This document shows positions 8,642-19,782 of a stretch of 64,000 nucleotides of DNA, piece after piece. Position 1 is the first letter of the stretch. Each line of letters starts with the position of its first letter. The notes beneath the pieces are model-generated. The model worked only from the letters and a program-made list of their open reading frames with translations, ran no database searches and was not told the origin of the DNA. Source of the DNA: Vulcanimicrobium alpinum (GTDB lineage: Bacteria > Vulcanimicrobiota > Vulcanimicrobiia > Vulcanimicrobiales > Vulcanimicrobiaceae); assembly GCF_027923555.1 (NCBI RefSeq), contig NZ_AP025523.1, positions 868,001 through 932,000 on the forward strand, given 5' to 3'. Position numbers and translations under genes: made by a program.

Positions 8642-8664
8642 GTCACGCTGAGCTCGTCGAAGCG
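8642..8664 (+). repeat. copy of the 23-bp GTCACGCTGAGC dispersed repeat
   Basis: A copy of the family consensus that begins GTCACGCTGAG and ends TGTCGAAGCG, here with a C in place of the T before GTCGAAGCG. It lies between the convergent kamC and gamma-glutamyltransferase genes. Further copies lie at 15188-15693. Confidence 0.85.
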
Positions 8665-13370: not shown

Positions 13371-14288
13371 ATGGCGGCGTTTCTCGCGCGCCGCGCGCTC
13401 GGCGCGGTGTGGGCGCTCGCCGGCGTCGCGATCGTCGTCTTTCTCATCCTGCACCTGACCGGCGATCCGGCCGCGGTAATGATGCCGCCCGAATCGACCC
13501 AGGCGGAGATCGATGCGTTCCGCCACGCCCAGGGCTTCGACCGCCCGCTGCCCGTGCAGTTCGCGTCGTTCGCGCTGGCCGCGGCGCACGGCGATCTCGG
13601 CGTGTCGCTGCGGCATCAGGAGCCGGCGATGTCGCTCGCGCTAAAGCGCTTTCCGGCGACGATCCTGCTTGCGGGAAGCGCGTTTGCGATCGTGCTGCTC
13701 GTCGGCGTTCCGGCTGGCGTGGCGTCGGCGCTGCGTCCGCGCACGTGGATCGATTATACGGCGCGCATCGTCGCGCTGATCGGGCAGAGCGCGCCGACGT
13801 ACTGGATCGGCCTGATGCTGATCCTGCTCTTCGCCGTGCGGCTGGGCTGGGTGCCGGCGAGCGGGATCGGCGACTGGCGCAACGTGATCCTGCCGGCGGC
13901 GACGCTGGGATTTTTTTCGACCGCGAAGCTGATGCGCCTGACGCGCGCCGCGATGCTCGACGTGCTCACTTCCGACTACCTGCGCACGGCACGCGCGAAG
14001 GGGCTTACGGGGACGCGCGTGGTGCTCGCGCACGCGCTGCGCAACGCGTGGATCCCGATCGTCACGCAGCTCGGCGTCGAGCTCGGCACCCTGCTCTCCG
14101 GCGCGATCATCACCGAGACGGTGTTCGCGTGGCCGGGCGTCGGGCGACTGGCGGTGCAGGCGGTATTCGAGCGCGATTTTCCGGTCGTCGAGGCCGTGGT
14201 GCTGCTCGCGGCGACGACGTTCGTGCTGCTGAACCTCGTCGTCGATCTGCTCTACGCCGCACTCGATCCGCGCATCCGGTACGCATAG
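13371..14288 (+). CDS. DppB/OppB-type ABC transporter permease
   Basis: A 305-residue inner-membrane permease with about six helices. The N-terminal helix (A-G-V-A-I-V-V-F-L-I-L) is followed by the periplasmic segment with D-R-P-L-P-V-Q-F typical of DppB. The cytoplasmic EAA loop is visible as the Y-L-R-T-A-R-A-K-G-L segment, and the family motif E-T-V-F-A-W-P-G-V-G-R-L is present. It starts 3 bases after the binding-protein gene, and its TAG stop shares a base with the GTG of the DppC partner. It would form a heterodimer with that partner and recruit an ATPase encoded elsewhere. Confidence 0.92.
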   Translation: MAAFLARRALGAVWALAGVAIVVFLILHLTGDPAAVMMPPESTQAEIDAFRHAQGFDRPLPVQFASFALAAAHGDLGVSLRHQEPAMSLALKRFPATILLAGSAFAIVLLVGVPAGVASALRPRTWIDYTARIVALIGQSAPTYWIGLMLILLFAVRLGWVPASGIGDWRNVILPAATLGFFSTAKLMRLTRAAMLDVLTSDYLRTARAKGLTGTRVVLAHALRNAWIPIVTQLGVELGTLLSGAIITETVFAWPGVGRLAVQAVFERDFPVVEAVVLLAATTFVLLNLVVDLLYAALDPRIRYA

Positions 14289-15187
14289 TGGCGACCGCCG
14301 TCGCCGCCGCACCGTCCGCGCACGCGGAAGGCGCGCCGAACCGCACCGCCGCGCTGCGCCGCATCGCGCGCGATCCCGGCGCGGTCGTGGGCGCGGTGAT
14401 CGTCGCGCTGGTGGCGCTGTGCGCGCTGTTCGCGCCGCTGATCGCGCGCGGCGATCCCAACGCGCAGGATCTCGCATCGACGCTGCTCCCGCCGATGTGG
14501 ATCGCCGGCGGCTCCCACGCGCATGTCCTGGGCACCGACAATCTCGGACGCGACGTGCTGGTTCGGATCATCTGGGGCTCGCGGATCTCAGCGATCGTGG
14601 GGATCTCGGTGGTGGCGATCGGCGCGTCGATCGGCGTCACCGCCGGCCTCCTCGCCGGCTATCGGCGCGGCTGGGTCGACGCGCTCATCGCGCGCATCAC
14701 CGACGTGCAGCTCGCGTTCCCGCTGGTGCTGCTTGCGGTTGCGATCGTCGCGGTCGTGGGTCCGGGGCTGTGGACGGTGATCGCCGCGATCGGCCTCACC
14801 TCGTGGGTGCAGTACGTGCGGGTCGTGCGCGCGGAGACGCTGAGCCTGCGCGAGCGCGAGTTCGTCGCCGCGGCGCATGCCGCCGGCGCGAGCAGCGCGC
14901 GCGTTCTCGTGCGGCACCTGCTTCCCAACGTCGGCTCGGCCGCGATCGTCCTGGGCACGTTCGAGATCGCGCGCGCCGTCGTGCTCGAATCGTCGCTCTC
15001 GTTCCTCGGTCTGGGCGTGCCGCCGACGATCGCATCGTGGGGCGGGATGCTCGCCGACGGCCGCCAGTATCTCGACACCGCCTGGTGGATCGCTCTGTTC
15101 CCCGGGCTCGCGATCGTGATCGCGGTAATGGGCGTGAACCTCCTCGGCGACGGCCTCCGCGACGCCCTCGACCCCGGCATGCGCTAA
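14288..15187 (+). CDS. DppC/OppC-type ABC transporter permease
   Basis: A 299-residue permease starting at GTG 14288, one base overlapping the DppB stop. It has the DppC N-terminal cytosolic extension (about 40 residues), the H-V-L-G-T-D-N-L-G-R-D motif, the EAA loop (R-E-F-V-A-A-A-H-A-A-G-A) and the C-terminal S-F-L-G-L-G-V-P-P and G-D-G-L-R-D-A-L-D-P signatures. The operon ends here without DppD/DppF ATPases: the next 500 bases hold dispersed repeats and a GIY-YIG gene on the other strand. The transporter must borrow an ATPase from another locus. Confidence 0.92.
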   Translation: MATAVAAAPSAHAEGAPNRTAALRRIARDPGAVVGAVIVALVALCALFAPLIARGDPNAQDLASTLLPPMWIAGGSHAHVLGTDNLGRDVLVRIIWGSRISAIVGISVVAIGASIGVTAGLLAGYRRGWVDALIARITDVQLAFPLVLLAVAIVAVVGPGLWTVIAAIGLTSWVQYVRVVRAETLSLREREFVAAAHAAGASSARVLVRHLLPNVGSAAIVLGTFEIARAVVLESSLSFLGLGVPPTIASWGGMLADGRQYLDTAWWIALFPGLAIVIAVMGVNLLGDGLRDALDPGMR

Positions 15188-15241
15188 GTCACGCTGAGCT
15201 TGTCGAAGCGCCGCCCCGTCACGCTGAGCTTTGTCGAAGCG
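15188..15241 (+). repeat. two direct copies of the 23-bp dispersed repeat
   Basis: Copies at 15188-15210 and 15218-15241 (the second with one extra T) begin immediately after the DppC stop codon. A 7-base spacer separates them. They lie just downstream of the 3' end of the GIY-YIG gene. Confidence 0.85.
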
Positions 15242-15247
15242 CCGCCA

Positions 15248-15553
15248 TCAGCGATATCCGCCGCCGCTCCGCGCGAGACGCGCAATCCCAAGCCAATCCC
15301 CTTCGACGAGCGCGCGTTTCTTCGCCCACGACCACCCTTTGAGCTGCTTCTCCGCCGCGATCGCGTCCGTAGCATCGGAGAACTCCTGCGAGTACACGAG
15401 GCGCACCGGCCGGCGCGAAGAGGTGTAGCAGTACTCAAAGTCGCCGCGTTCACGCTGCACGACTCGCTGCTCGAGATTCGACGTCACGCCGACGTAGAAC
15501 GACCCGTCAGCGCAGCACAGCATGTAGACCCAGAACGTTTTCACGTGCGTCAT
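15248..15553 (-). CDS. small GIY-YIG nuclease-fold protein
   Basis: A roughly 101-residue single-domain protein of the YhbQ/UPF0213-like group. The GIY-YIG core is present as V-Y-M-L-C-C-A-D-G-S-F-Y-V-G-V-T-S-N, followed by the R-V...R-P-V-R-L-V-Y element and the conserved Glu in A-A-E-K-Q-L-K-G-W. These are the catalytic Tyr, Arg and Glu positions of the family. Met 15553 gives the usual family N-terminus; a start at 15571 is also in frame. The gene is bracketed on both sides by the dispersed 23-bp repeat. Its biological role in this group is unsettled; DNA processing linked to the repeats is a hypothesis. Confidence 0.88.
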   Translation of the reverse strand: MTHVKTFWVYMLCCADGSFYVGVTSNLEQRVVQRERGDFEYCYTSSRRPVRLVYSQEFSDATDAIAAEKQLKGWSWAKKRALVEGDWLGIARLARSGGGYR

Positions 15554-15586
15554 CTGCGCCGCCCGCCGCATTCGGCAAGCCCCCCC

Positions 15587-15664
15587 GTGTCACGCTGAGC
15601 CTGTCGAAGCGTAGTCCAAATCGTGCACGAAGGCTACTGCGCTTCGACAGGCTCAGCGTGACAC
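15587..15664. repeat. inverted pair of dispersed repeats forming a long hairpin
   Basis: Two copies in opposite orientation (15589-15611 and 15640-15662) extend into perfectly complementary 25-base arms, 15587-15611 and 15640-15664. Inward pairing adds four more pairs (one G-T), leaving a loop of about 20 bases that itself contains the palindrome CGTGCACG. It lies upstream of the GIY-YIG gene and downstream of the class II aldolase gene. It could act as a bidirectional terminator or as a single-strand hairpin substrate. No T-run follows. Confidence 0.85.
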
Positions 15665-15669
15665 GGCTG

Positions 15670-15693
15670 CGCATCGACAAGCCTCAGCGTGAC
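15670..15693 (-). repeat. diverged copy of the 23-bp dispersed repeat
   Basis: A reverse-oriented copy carrying one substitution in the GAAGC part and one inserted base relative to the others, ending 3 bases before the stop of the class II aldolase gene. It looks like an older or decayed member of the family. Confidence 0.7.
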
Positions 15694-15696
15694 GGG

Positions 15697-16458
15697 TTAG
15701 TCGAACATGTCGGGCTGGGTTGCGGCGAGGTGATTGTAGATCGTTTGAAAGTGCAGCCAGCCGATGAAATCGTTGCCGACGTGCTCGCGGCTGTACCGCG
15801 CGCTCTTTTCGGAGACCGTTTTCGGTTTGACGCCCGACGCTTCGACGAGCAGTTGGACCTGGCAGCAGCGCTCCAGCGCGATGAACCAGAATGCGGCGTC
15901 GTCGATGCTGTGATGACTCGCAGTCAGCAGGCCGTGATTTTGATGCAGCGCCGCCCGGTTGTTGCCGAACATCTCCGCGACCGACTTTCCCGACTGCTTC
16001 TCGACGGCCACCGCCCCCGCCGACGCGCCGATCACGACGTGATTCTCATAGAAACACGCCGCGTCCTGACTGATCATGTCGAGCGGACGGCCGGTCGTGC
16101 ACCACGCCGTACCGTAGGTCGTGTGTGCGTGACACATCGCGACGATCTCCGGATTCGCCGCGTGAATCGACGAATGCAGCACGAATCCGGCGCGATTGAC
16201 GGCGTACTTGCCCTCGACGACGTTGCCGTCGTGATCCGCCAGAATCAGATTCGACAGCTTCACTTGCGAGAAGTGAACGCACATCGGGTTCGTCCAATAG
16301 AGATCTTTGTGTTCGGGATCGCGCACCGTGAGGTGACCGGCGAACCCGTAATCGAAGCCCTGCTGGGCGAACGCGCGTACCGCCGCCACTAGGTGCTTCT
16401 TGCGATATTCCCGTTCTTCCGCAAAACTGGAGAACGTCGGAACCTCCGGAAAAATCAA
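15697..16458 (-). CDS. class II aldolase/adducin family protein
   Basis: A 253-residue class II aldolase-fold protein. The metal-binding His pair is visible in A-M-C-H-A-H-T-T-Y-G (H110, H112), and the third His lies in the H-Q-N-H-G-L-L segment. Members cleave or epimerise sugar phosphates or act on related hydroxy-acids; the substrate cannot be named. TTG 16458 is the only in-frame initiator after an amber codon at 16474-16476. A better start signal (AAAAGGGAGA, then ATG 16506) lies in the same frame 16 codons upstream, so this may be a gene with a premature stop. The core domain is intact either way. Confidence 0.85.
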   Translation of the reverse strand: MIFPEVPTFSSFAEEREYRKKHLVAAVRAFAQQGFDYGFAGHLTVRDPEHKDLYWTNPMCVHFSQVKLSNLILADHDGNVVEGKYAVNRAGFVLHSSIHAANPEIVAMCHAHTTYGTAWCTTGRPLDMISQDAACFYENHVVIGASAGAVAVEKQSGKSVAEMFGNNRAALHQNHGLLTASHHSIDDAAFWFIALERCCQVQLLVEASGVKPKTVSEKSARYSREHVGNDFIGWLHFQTIYNHLAATQPDMFD

Positions 16459-16473
16459 GCCGGGCTGTTCGGG

Positions 16474-16506
16474 CTAATAGATCGAGATGCGATTGTCCAG
16501 AAGCAT
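16474..16506 (-). other. in-frame ATG with strong RBS, closed by amber at codon 11
   Basis: ATG 16506 follows GGGAGA by 6 bases and opens a 10-codon frame (MLLDNRISIY) that stops at TAG 16474-16476. The frame continues without further stops through TTG 16458 into the aldolase. Either the original start was here and codon 11 mutated to TAG, or this is a translated leader peptide. Confidence 0.55.
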
Positions 16507-16591
16507 GCGTGTTCTCCCTTTTCGTGCGTGCGGAGAATCGTCGGTCGGCGAATATTCAGCACCGGAACGCCGCCGCCCTCGACCGTGCGGC

Positions 16592-18868
16592 TCAGCGTGA
16601 GGTGAACGTGAGAATCACACGCAGCGCCGCCGGCTGGAGCACCAAGGCGTCGCGCGGTTGGGGCGCCGCGTTGGGGATCGGGTAGGGCGTTCCCTCGCCG
16701 ATGCGGGTGAAGCGGCCGCTGACGGCGTTCGTGAAGTTCGTTCCGGCGAACGTCACGTCGACACCGCCCATCCGTTTGCCGATCGCGGCGTCGAGCGTCG
16801 CGTACCGTCCTTGCGCGAGCCAGTTGTTCGCCGATGTCTGCGCGAGGTTCAGCGCGCCGTGCGCGCCGTCGCGCGCGTACCGCACGCCGAGCGTGAGCCG
16901 CTGCAGCGGGATCCCTGCGAACTGCTGGCCGACGACCAGATCGGAACCGGAGGTCGGGTTTGCGGCGCTCACCGCGGCGGGAAGCGAGACCGGGTACGCG
17001 GCGTTCACGCCGTACTCGGCCGTCGCGAACCATGCCGAGCCGAAGCGGTGCGCGATGCGCAGCGCGCCTCCCTGATACACGACGTTGCCGGCGTTGATCG
17101 GAGAACTCTGCGCGATCGGGACGGTCGGGTCGACGCCGCACCGCGCGTTGAGCGGATAGAAGTTCTCGATCGGGTCGCGCAGGTTCGTGCGGTAGAGCGT
17201 CGCGTCGACGGTCGTCGCGCCGAACCGCTTCCCGTAACCGAGTTCGTATTCGGTTGCGTGCTCGGCGCGCTCGTTCGGGTTCCCGTTGGGCGAAACGCAG
17301 TTTTGATCCGGCGGCGGCAACTGCGCGAACGGTACGGCATAGCGTTCCGCCAGCAGCGGCGCGCGAAATCCCGTCCCCGCCGCGACGCGGAACGTTCCGC
17401 CGGAACCGTCGTCGACGGTGACGCCGATCCGCCCGTCGGTGCTCGTCCCGAACGTCGACCAGCGCGACGTCACGACGCTCGCGGCGACGTGCGCCTGCGC
17501 GGAGAGGTCTGCGCCGGCGCGCAGCCACGCCGACGTCGCGTGCTCGCGCAGCGTCTCGCCGAATTGATCGGGCGACGAGAGCGTCTCGCTTCGCGTCGAG
17601 CCGCCGAGCGCAAACGTCGACGCACCGGCGCTGCGGCTCCACTCCATCGTCGTCGTCGCCGAACGATCCGCGAGCGAGAAATCGTACGGCGTGCGTCCGA
17701 CGCCGCCGGCGAGCGCGTTGACGCTGTCGGAGATTGCGCTCGTCGCGCTGAGCGACCCGGCGCCGAGCGGAAGGGTCGCGCCGATCAGCGTCGCGTGCAG
17801 CGTCTGCGCCCGCGTCAGCGGACCGCTGCCGGCGAAAAGCGCGTTCGGCGCCTCATCGCGCGGGTCGAGCGGCGCCGTCTCGCTCGCGCTCAGATCGCGC
17901 GTGTCGGCCAGCGTGAAACTGCGCGCGCGCAGCTTCGCGCGCGGCGAGAGATCGTACGTCAGGTGCACGAGCGCCGTCGACGCCGCGATGCTCGATCCGA
18001 GCACCGCCGTCGTGCTTCCCTGCGGCGACGAGAACGTCACCGGGTAGTCGTGAACGTAGCCGTCGCTGTGCGCGCTGCCGGCCGCAAGTGCGTAACCGAG
18101 CCGGCCGATCCGTCCCGTGCCGCCTGCGTCGATCGTCGAGGTGCCGAACGAACCGGCGGAGAGACGCAGCAGCCGTTGCGGCGTCGCCGTCGGCCGCAGC
18201 GAGACCAGATTGACCTCGCCGCCGATCGTGTCGGCGCCGCGATGATCCTCGGGGCCGAGACCTTCGCTCACCTCGACCGCGCCGAGCACCGCCGACGGAA
18301 ACAGCGCGAGATCGACGTCGCCGGTGTTCGCATCGTTGAGCGGCTGACCGTCGAGCGAGATCCGCGTCTCCGACGGATCGGGGCCACGCAGCGCGACGAC
18401 GGCGGCCGATCCCGGCTCGCCGCCCCCCGGCTTCACCAGCGTCACCGACGGCAGCGTCGCGAGCGCATCGACGGCGCGATCGTATCCCGACGCGGTGAGA
18501 TCGGCGCGCGTGATCTCGCGCGACGGCACGGTCGAACGCGCGGGGGCGAGCCGGCCGTCGACGCTGATGCGCCCGATCTCGCGCAGCTTCCCGGCGCCCG
18601 CCGGTTCGAGCGCGACATCGAGCCGTTCGCCCTCGTGCACGACGACGTCGGTGATCGCGGGCGCGTAGCCGGGCGCGGAGATCACGACACGATAACGGCC
18701 GGCCGGGAGCTGCAGGCGGAAGCGTCCGGCCGTGTCGCTGTCGGCATCCGCGCTCGCGGTCCCGCCGGCATGAACGTGCGCTCGCAGCGGCACGCCGTCG
18801 ACGGACGTGACCGATCCGGAGACGCCGCAGCATCCCAGCGCGGCGGCAGCGAGGAGCGGAACCGGCAT
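16592..18868 (-). CDS. TonB-dependent receptor with N-terminal carboxypeptidase-regulatory-like domain
   Basis: A 758-residue outer-membrane receptor. A short signal region (MPVPLLAAAALGCCG) is followed by a beta-sandwich carboxypeptidase-regulatory-like domain (about residues 15-95, with F-R-L-Q-L-P-A-G-R-Y-R-V). A plug domain comes next (about 115-225, with V-A-L-R-G-P-D-P-S-E-T-R-I-S-L-D-G-Q-P-L), then a 22-strand-type barrel ending in aromatic-poor L-R-V-I-L-T-F-T-S-R. Such receptors import siderophores, cobalamin or oligomers with TonB energy. No TonB/ExbBD lies here. Cobalamin would fit the nearby kamBC genes, but no ligand motif supports it. Confidence 0.9.
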   Translation of the reverse strand: MPVPLLAAAALGCCGVSGSVTSVDGVPLRAHVHAGGTASADADSDTAGRFRLQLPAGRYRVVISAPGYAPAITDVVVHEGERLDVALEPAGAGKLREIGRISVDGRLAPARSTVPSREITRADLTASGYDRAVDALATLPSVTLVKPGGGEPGSAAVVALRGPDPSETRISLDGQPLNDANTGDVDLALFPSAVLGAVEVSEGLGPEDHRGADTIGGEVNLVSLRPTATPQRLLRLSAGSFGTSTIDAGGTGRIGRLGYALAAGSAHSDGYVHDYPVTFSSPQGSTTAVLGSSIAASTALVHLTYDLSPRAKLRARSFTLADTRDLSASETAPLDPRDEAPNALFAGSGPLTRAQTLHATLIGATLPLGAGSLSATSAISDSVNALAGGVGRTPYDFSLADRSATTTMEWSRSAGASTFALGGSTRSETLSSPDQFGETLREHATSAWLRAGADLSAQAHVAASVVTSRWSTFGTSTDGRIGVTVDDGSGGTFRVAAGTGFRAPLLAERYAVPFAQLPPPDQNCVSPNGNPNERAEHATEYELGYGKRFGATTVDATLYRTNLRDPIENFYPLNARCGVDPTVPIAQSSPINAGNVVYQGGALRIAHRFGSAWFATAEYGVNAAYPVSLPAAVSAANPTSGSDLVVGQQFAGIPLQRLTLGVRYARDGAHGALNLAQTSANNWLAQGRYATLDAAIGKRMGGVDVTFAGTNFTNAVSGRFTRIGEGTPYPIPNAAPQPRDALVLQPAALRVILTFTSR

Positions 18869-18960
18869 CGACCTGAAATTCTCGTGATTCCTGCGGAGCG
18901 GGCCTTCCAGGCGAACGAGCCCAGACGGTTCCGTGACGCCGGACGCGAACGAACGATCGC

Positions 18961-19782
18961 GTGGACCCGCTGATCATCACCGTCGCCCCGGTCGGGGGCG
19001 AAGTCATGCCGGACCAGACGCCGTATCTGCCGGTCACGCCCGCGCAGCTCGGCGAGACGGCCCGCGAGGTGCGCGCCGCCGGCGCCGGCATCATCCACGT
19101 CCACTGCCGAAACGACGACGGGAGCAACACTCACGACGTCGCGCGCTTCCGCGAGGCGTACGACGCGATCCGCGCCGCGAGCGACCTGATCGTCCAATTC
19201 TCAACCGGCGGCGCGATCGGGATGACCCCGGCGGAACGCGCCGCGCCGCTGGAGTTGCGGCCGGAGATGGCGACGCTCACCTGCGGGACGGTGAACTTCG
19301 GCGACGACGTCTTCGAGAACAGCTTTCCGATCATGCGCGGGATCGCGGCGGCGATCGCGCAGCACGGCGTCGTCCCCGAACTCGAGATCTTCGATCTGGG
19401 CCACGTCGCAAACGCAAAACGGCTGGCCGCCGAAGGTGCGATCCGCCTCCCCGCGCACGTCGATTTCGTCCTCGGCGTCCCCGGCGCGCTCGAAGCCACC
19501 GTCGAAAACCTCGTCGATTGCGTCCGCGCGCTCCCTCCGGGCTGCTCCTGGAGCGTCGCGGGGATCGGCCGCATGCAGCTCCCGCTCGCGACGGTGGCGA
19601 TCGCGATGGGCGGCCACGTTCGCGTCGGGCTGGAAGACAATCTCTACTACGCGAAGGGGCGCTTGGCGCGAAACGAGGAGCTGGTGGCCCGCGTGGCGCG
19701 GATCGCCAGCGAACTCGGGCGCCCGGTCGCGACGCCCGACGAAGCCCGCGGCCTGCTCCTCCGAACCGCGACCACGGCCTGA
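18961..19782 (+). CDS. BKACE-family (DUF849) beta-keto acid cleavage enzyme
   Basis: A 273-residue TIM-barrel enzyme of the family that includes Kce, which condenses 3-keto-5-aminohexanoate with acetyl-CoA to give acetoacetate and 3-aminobutyryl-CoA in lysine fermentation. The Zn-binding H46-x-H48 is in I-I-H-V-H-C-R, E14 lies in the P-V-G-G-E loop, and the C-terminal G-L-E-D-N-L-Y motif carries the conserved Glu. Family members use many beta-keto acids, so the Kce role is only one option. It gains some support from the kamB-kamC genes about 11 kb away. GTG 18961 gives a normal start. The DppBC pair follows after about 66 bases. Confidence 0.85.
   Translation: MDPLIITVAPVGGEVMPDQTPYLPVTPAQLGETAREVRAAGAGIIHVHCRNDDGSNTHDVARFREAYDAIRAASDLIVQFSTGGAIGMTPAERAAPLELRPEMATLTCGTVNFGDDVFENSFPIMRGIAAAIAQHGVVPELEIFDLGHVANAKRLAAEGAIRLPAHVDFVLGVPGALEATVENLVDCVRALPPGCSWSVAGIGRMQLPLATVAIAMGGHVRVGLEDNLYYAKGRLARNEELVARVARIASELGRPVATPDEARGLLLRTATTA

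Follow-up and report, generated by a model that had tools for sequence, protein, structure and literature searches.

A GIY-YIG nuclease subfamily associated with dispersed, tagged hairpin repeats: a candidate REP/RAYT-like partnership

The described system closest to the one considered here is that of the REPs, their REPIN doublets and the REP-associated tyrosine transposases (RAYTs). In both systems, a small gene is flanked by a pair of tagged hairpin repeats in inverted orientation, copies of which are dispersed elsewhere in the genome, often as inverted doublets, and the type of repeat tracks the protein tree. According to excerpts of PMC2817692, the definition of a RAYT includes a gene flanked by two inverted REPs. 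The two systems differ in enzyme and tag: a Y1/HUH transposase and GTAG in the one, a GIY-YIG nuclease and a tag of the GTC/CTC type in the other.

A further set of repeats that bears on the present study is the CGTC-tagged REP superfamily of Di Nocera, De Gregorio and Rocco (2013), which takes in the Neisseria repeat dRS3 (the CGTC-1 repeats) and the Rickettsia repeats RPE-4 and RPE-6. As characterized in the excerpted text of that paper (PMC3733652), the superfamily has a CGTC, TGTC or CCTC tag, a stem of 8-9 bp beginning with AT, a loop of 4-5 and a tail near CCA. The same excerpts describe CGTC repeats as not associated with transposase genes and apparently lacking a dedicated transposase, and leave their mobiliser open; the paper reports no partner gene and contains no occurrence of GIY-YIG.

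GIY-YIG nucleases are tied to mobile DNA in GIY-YIG homing endonucleases and in Penelope-like elements, as they are in the loci described below. These loci nevertheless differ from both in having no intron, intein, reverse transcriptase or DNA-binding domain, and in having tagged hairpins as their ends. Among open PubMed Central papers, we found none that links GIY-YIG genes with REPs, and searches with the repeat letters gave either no matches or ones that, by title, looked like primers. A term search found neither GIY nor nuclease nor RAYT in RepRanger, a 2025 REP survey, and no palindrome term in the 2006 GIY-YIG family paper. Here, we describe a subfamily of small GIY-YIG genes which, in many bacteria that are not related to each other, is bracketed by inverted copies of such repeats, and conclude, from the comparison of loci and genomes, that this is a partnership of the REP/RAYT kind with a GIY-YIG nuclease as its enzyme.

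The locus in Vulcanimicrobium alpinum

The window analysed is a stretch of 64,000 nucleotides from the V. alpinum genome. An original prediction from its letters held that five copies of one repeat surround a single GIY-YIG gene within 510 bases, with one other clear copy in the remainder; both statements were confirmed, the cluster lying at 15188-15693 and the single outlying copy, a pattern match on the plus strand, at 8643-8664. Copy 1 (15188-15210, plus) starts at the first base past the stop codon of an OppC/DppC-type ABC permease gene (14288-15187, plus), which we give for context. Copy 2 (15218-15241, plus) has one extra T and lies 6 nt from the stop codon of the GIY-YIG gene, which occupies 15248-15571 on the minus strand and encodes 107 amino acids, its start codon being uncertain. 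Thirteen nucleotides upstream of the annotated start is an 82-nt near-perfect palindrome (15585-15666), a REPIN-like doublet made up of copy 3 (15589-15611, plus) and copy 4 (15640-15662, minus); folded as DNA it reaches -41.7 kcal/mol (z -11), and in an Rfam search of the locus it drew sub-threshold matches only. The diverged copy 5 (15670-15693, minus) completes the cluster.

With up to three mismatches, the pattern TCACGCTGAGCNTGTCGAAGCG matches the window four times, three times at the GIY-YIG locus and once at 8643-8664, against a chance expectation of 0.01; none of 100 shuffles reached four. The pattern misses the copies at 15218 and 15670, owing to the insertion and the divergence respectively, and these were recognised by eye and in a separate analysis. 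Four of the five copies carry a CGTC or TGTC tag and the fifth an AGTC, on a stem of 4-5 bp that starts with AC, encloses a loop of about 11 and has no CCA tail. Tag and architecture are thus common to these repeats and the CGTC-tagged REPs, while the AT start, the stem length and the CCA tail are not, so that the window repeat is better regarded as a relative in kind than as a member of that superfamily.

The genome-wide count that was proposed with the original prediction as a check gave 159 copies in the 3.51-Mb genome, compared with one for the reversed pattern. Of the 100 copies listed, neighbours closer than 150 nt form 19 pairs; every one of these pairs is inverted in the same way, with a spacing of 50-51 nt in seven and 61-88 nt in twelve. 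These pairs, like the 82-nt palindrome, have the REPIN features of inversion, a short spacer, a long hairpin and preferred spacing. The GIY-YIG locus is the sole group of three or more copies within 600 nt among the 100 listed. A search of the same genome for the RAYT domain Y1_Tnp (PF01797) found no match, while 5 of 14 control genomes did match, and a RAYT as driver of the repeats in this genome was rejected on that ground; the window protein itself matches GIY-YIG rather than a Y1/HUH tyrosine transposase domain.

That match, to Pfam PF01541, scores 52.7 bits against a cut-off of 22.6. The protein retains Y16, G28, R36 and E74, and hence the catalytic Tyr, Arg and Glu by which the GIY-YIG superfamily is recognised; the corresponding Y, G, R and E are invariant in all 57 aligned proteins of the subfamily defined below. 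A His four residues past the catalytic Arg is near-invariant in that subfamily and is replaced in the window protein by R40 (15452-15454), so that this copy may be altered or impaired. One other GIY-YIG domain was found in the V. alpinum genome, in a 693-aa open frame that we take, from its length, to be UvrC. Searches of NCBIfam, PADLOC and PHROGs with the protein gave no informative family. The nearest solved structures by sequence are UPF0213/YhbQ-type proteins (PDB 1ZG2, E 2.5e-21; 1YWL, 1.8e-16), which like the window protein are one single small domain; SLX1 and UvrC are weak sequence relatives.

The KxW subfamily and its brackets

Of 149 genomes from the phylum searched at the protein level, 113 gave matches, which fall into two tiers, one close (about 45-60% identity) and one distant. 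In a protein tree of 165 rows, 134 form a clade (SH-aLRT 94) that includes the window protein and almost all bracketed genes, and that we call KxW after a Lys-x-Trp near the protein end. The tree was built on 110 columns, so many of its forks are unresolved; on it the window protein sits inside the KxW clade and is therefore not placed with the UPF0213/YhbQ-type proteins, whose YhbQ-like rows lie outside the clade and, unlike KxW genes, are in no case bracketed.

A first scan covered 30 close-tier flanks, the window's own included, by motif search and by eye, and in most of them one wider repeat family lies beside the gene: GTCAYCCTGAG, a variable middle that often forms its own hairpin, and then TCGAAGGRYGAC. 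A first core motif, CTGAGCNTGTCGAAG, was dropped since it overlooked many brackets, the family being wider than the motif. To avoid such motif bias, an alignment-free test was adopted, which takes the best inverted match between the 250 bases to the left and the 250 to the right of a gene and uses 100 dinucleotide shuffles per locus. It was applied to 166 loci from the host phylum, Alphaproteobacteria, Ignavibacteriales, Acidobacteria and plasmid-collection records, six of which were dropped for short flanks. The phylum loci are the 30 best automatic ones, 20 of 25 further close matches and 20 hand-chosen distant ones on long contigs; the close matches left out are four at contig edges and one (G040) found bracketed separately. 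The alphaproteobacterial loci are 29 automatic ones plus another 40 picked in the order of the match list; those skipped on the way include second copies and matches that have internal stops or lie close to a contig end. Two duplicates (L062 and L064) were removed, and L057-L060 (L045, L050, L051 and L042 refetched) and L072 were not entered.

The outcome separates the two kinds of gene. At the lowest attainable p, 108 of 129 KxW loci are bracketed, compared with 1 of 31 other GIY-YIG loci (Fisher 1e-17, kinship ignored; all p-values here are inflated by relatedness of the loci). The 31 are mostly YhbQ/UPF0213-like, and the sole bracketed one, L070, is not. A score of 18 or more is reached by 86 of the 129 real KxW genes and by none of 639 displaced positions at the same KxW loci. 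In the seven genomes with both kinds of gene (G074, G077, G101, G102, G103, G104 and G106), the KxW gene is bracketed in six and the YhbQ-type gene in none. The unbracketed YhbQ-like controls rule out the idea that any GIY-YIG gene would do, and the displaced positions and within-genome pairs rule out REP richness alone as an explanation of the brackets. The predicted clustering of repeats around the GIY-YIG genes of relatives accordingly holds for the KxW subfamily and fails for the others. KxW loci show the layout of a gene flanked by two inverted REPs that helps to define RAYTs; their heads are of the GTC/CTC type and not GTAG or GTGG. Given so strong and KxW-specific an association, the suggested analogy with RAYTs holds as one of architecture.

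Relatives that carry the gene mostly carry the brackets as well, with exceptions. The test failed at 21 of the 129 KxW loci, although visual inspection reveals a repeat at one flank or at both in at least nine of them. Eight of ten further named plasmid-collection loci are bracketed, the two KxW genes that are not being those of Rhizobium tumorigenes (L187) and a Photobacterium (L190); simple rather than dinucleotide shuffles were used for these ten, and for three re-searched alphaproteobacterial copies discussed below. On a Sphingomonas paeninsulae plasmid (L046:1501-1872), a KxW gene with an internal stop lies between rnc and era, usually a tight gene pair, and no clear brackets are left.

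The repeats themselves have a consistent anatomy. Where a recognised repeat lies on both sides (53 loci), the heads, that is the GTC or CTC tags, face outward in 46, inward in four and otherwise in three. In the commonest type, for which 106 distinct cores were compared, three stem pairs covary more than in any shuffle: standard pairing is found in 98, 95 and 96% of the cores, and in at most 87, 68 and 82% after shuffling. The tag positions do not covary. Mapped on the protein tree, bracket type changes 17 times, against a shuffled minimum of 35; it changes 9 times in the host phylum (mean 13.5) and 6 times in Alphaproteobacteria (mean 17.9), with none of 300 shuffles as low in either. One genome (G050) has two KxW genes that differ in bracket type, CGAAGT in one and CYTGT in the other, and each type is also dispersed in that genome. 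The same genome contains long head-to-tail repeat arrays with a spacing of about 33 nt (C12:10128-11164 and C21:17032-17260), unlike the doublets elsewhere. At L021:988-1482, 13 repeats of mixed orientation lie on one side of the gene, partly as a 16-nt tandem array.

A second KxW branch, in Alphaproteobacteria, has brackets that include repeats such as CGTCATCCCCGCGAAGGCGGGGATCCAG and CGTCATGCCCGGGCTTGGCCCGGGCATCCA. The superfamily tag (CGTC, TGTC or CCTC) is found in the alphaproteobacterial brackets as in the V. alpinum copies, and many brackets from Alphaproteobacteria and Neisseria also have the AT stem and CCA tail. Azospirillum lipoferum, Sinorhizobium meliloti and Novosphingobium aromaticivorans, which are among the hosts named in the excerpts of PMC3733652, have bracketed KxW genes, and in Neisseria gonorrhoeae the KxW gene is bracketed by CGTC-1 repeats, which those excerpts equate with dRS3. 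The plasmid collection holds two chromosome-sized N. gonorrhoeae records, NZ_CP119140.1 and NZ_CP119142.1, each with a KxW gene; the dRS3 bracketing was read in NZ_CP119142.1, for which the collection's incomplete table lists no gene.

Gain, loss and possible mobility

Do gene and repeats travel together? In A. lipoferum, the KxW gene lies between sufB and sufC with a CGTC doublet on each side, and in the three relatives read, at about 94% identity, the sufB-sufC spacer is 90-130 nt long and has neither gene nor repeats. Eight more Azospirillum records (H98-H105) give the same shortened match, known from the match alone. The permease upstream of the window cassette is kept at 82-84% in six congeners; in all six the cassette is absent after it, and there is no repeat core within about 420 nt either. 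The cassette-free sites, being free of repeats, indicate that gene and repeats came or went together, and the association of gene and repeats, with gain and loss as a unit, is supported. Five gene-bearing congeners have the gene at four different sites, and in one congener (G128) it is frameshifted. In G122 and G126, both of them congeners, a gene that looks BKACE-like by eye comes immediately after the permease; in the window, where Pfam places a BKACE gene at 18961, the interval between the two (15188-18961) is taken up by the GIY-YIG cassette together with an aldolase gene and one that resembles a TonB receptor. At the gltA-lpxB site of S. meliloti Ak57 (L186:1640-2300), a repeat-bounded gene remnant of the last 27 codons or so lies directly before a full repeat-gene-repeat copy, and the same site in Sinorhizobium K101 has repeats and no gene. 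To judge from its structure, the deleted derivative in S. meliloti resembles the way in which autonomous elements yield short derivatives. Neither a transposition event nor an intermediate was observed.

At the level of whole genomes, the association is strong and has exceptions, for repeats also occur where the gene does not. Ten or more general-pattern repeats are found in 46 of 50 host-family genomes with the gene (E 1e-14 or better), in 17 of 49 without it, and in none of 50 outside the family; two of the 17 contain gene fragments. Incomplete drafts may account for some of the gene-less, repeat-rich genomes. Four gene-bearing genomes with few pattern matches looked like exceptions of the opposite kind; three (G068, G070 and G092) are not, as they carry CCCGAG...CGAGGG variants that the pattern misses, and the fourth is G111. 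Among 289 Alphaproteobacteria, five or more CGTC-type REPs occur in 39 of 101 genomes with a GIY-YIG match and in 16 of 188 without (p 1.5e-9), a comparison diluted by some YhbQ-like genes in the match list. When the 16 were searched again with a KxW profile, KxW genes were found in two (twice in G314, once in G185), and all three copies are unbracketed; the profile found no KxW gene in G429 (132 REPs), G420 (75) or G257 (39). In 32 repeat-free control genomes it gave five matches, none KxW-type by eye. The REP-rich genomes without a bracketed KxW gene imply that the repeats can outlive the gene or do without it.

Taking these results together, we lean towards the reading that the GIY-YIG gene and its bracketing repeats are one mobile unit, with the dispersed repeats as its non-autonomous relatives, as REPs and REPINs are to RAYTs. 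The KxW nuclease would then be a candidate enzyme for the spreading of dispersed hairpin repeats; recognition, cleavage and mobilisation, and the direction of causation, are what we infer. The main rival reverses that direction: the nuclease would be a homing parasite that cuts a pre-existing REP doublet and is copied in by repair, the repeats having spread by other means. GIY-YIG is indeed a classic homing-nuclease domain (PMC1564403, in excerpt), gene brackets share the inverted, heads-out layout of free doublets, and repeats without the gene occur while genes without any nearby repeat are fewer; the gltA-lpxB site, with repeats alone in K101 and gene plus repeats in S. meliloti, fits homing as well. 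We nevertheless consider homing unlikely. The empty sites read have no repeats, in three of three Azospirillum relatives and six of six congeners of the window's host. Moreover, with intact repeats at either end the locus would still be open to cutting, and the Y1_Tnp search of the V. alpinum genome turned up no other mobiliser that could have spread them.

Less probable again is a domesticated role: the enzyme would act on REP cruciforms, processing or silencing them in the course of repair, say, or of mRNA or chromosome maintenance, and would stay beside its substrates for regulation, any spread being incidental or long past. The V. alpinum genome has a single copy of the gene, the repeats abut it, the very stable palindrome 13 nt upstream of its start is where an autoregulatory site might be, and the Pfam domain also occurs in the structure-specific repair enzymes SLX1 and UvrC. 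Such a role is harder to reconcile with a gene found at four sites in five congeners and missing or broken by a frameshift in others, and the cassette-free sites and the deleted derivative suit a mobile unit better. Passive co-location, by which tolerant intergenic space accumulates both repeats and small dispensable genes without any functional link between them, is strongly disfavoured: the repeats do occupy the same compact intergenic regions, and REP-rich genomes offer many chances, yet GIY-YIG genes of other kinds lack brackets, even within the same genomes, displaced positions never reach a score of 18 (0 of 639), orientation is fixed, and repeat type tracks the protein tree. It is just as improbable that a RAYT or other known transposase mobilises the repeats with the GIY-YIG gene as a passenger. 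Excerpts of PMC2817692 present RAYTs as the established partners of GTAG REPs, but the V. alpinum genome has no Y1_Tnp match where 5 of 14 controls do, and the excerpts of PMC3733652 do not associate CGTC repeats with transposase genes.

How might a nuclease spread such repeats? If gene and repeats form one mobile unit, its ends would be marked by two repeat copies facing outward, each of them a hairpin whose GTC/CTC-type tag is left unpaired. The nuclease would recognise such a tagged hairpin in its extruded or single-stranded form, for instance on the lagging strand, and would nick next to the tag, freeing or copying the DNA between two tags: rarely the gene itself, more often a short doublet. 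Host enzymes would then join or repair the cut ends. The most likely course, on our analysis, would be recognition and nicking by the nuclease followed by low-rate spread of the cassette and the doublets via host repair. To our knowledge, a GIY-YIG enzyme that spreads DNA without a reverse transcriptase or integrase would be new for the fold. RAYTs are likewise thought, in the excerpted text of PMC2817692 and PMC3116915, to spread REPINs at a low rate through host repair.

We see about an even chance that KxW nucleases are the missing mobilisers of the CGTC-tagged REP superfamily and of the wider family of GTC/CTC-tagged hairpins in several phyla. With a GIY-YIG partner, the question of the CGTC-REP mobiliser can be put to a direct test that needs one small protein and one short hairpin. 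If the proposal is true, there is a second, independently evolved solution to the spread of REPs, with a hydrolytic nuclease in place of an HUH tyrosine transposase, and partnerships of the REP kind would have originated on at least two occasions, with enzymes that are not related. A role would also be assigned to a very common small gene, annotated only as "GIY-YIG nuclease family protein" or "excinuclease ABC subunit C".

Repeat-derived protein ends

The closeness of gene and repeat extends to the reading frames. At several loci (L019, L022, L027, L042, L085 and L108), KxW frames often continue into the flanking repeat, and the C-termini are then repeat-encoded, PSTSSG-like peptides or near variants. 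Because frames run on in this way, the annotated ends of KxW proteins are often repeat-derived, as judged from the sequence. At L108, the predicted protein has also gained its N-terminus from a flanking repeat.
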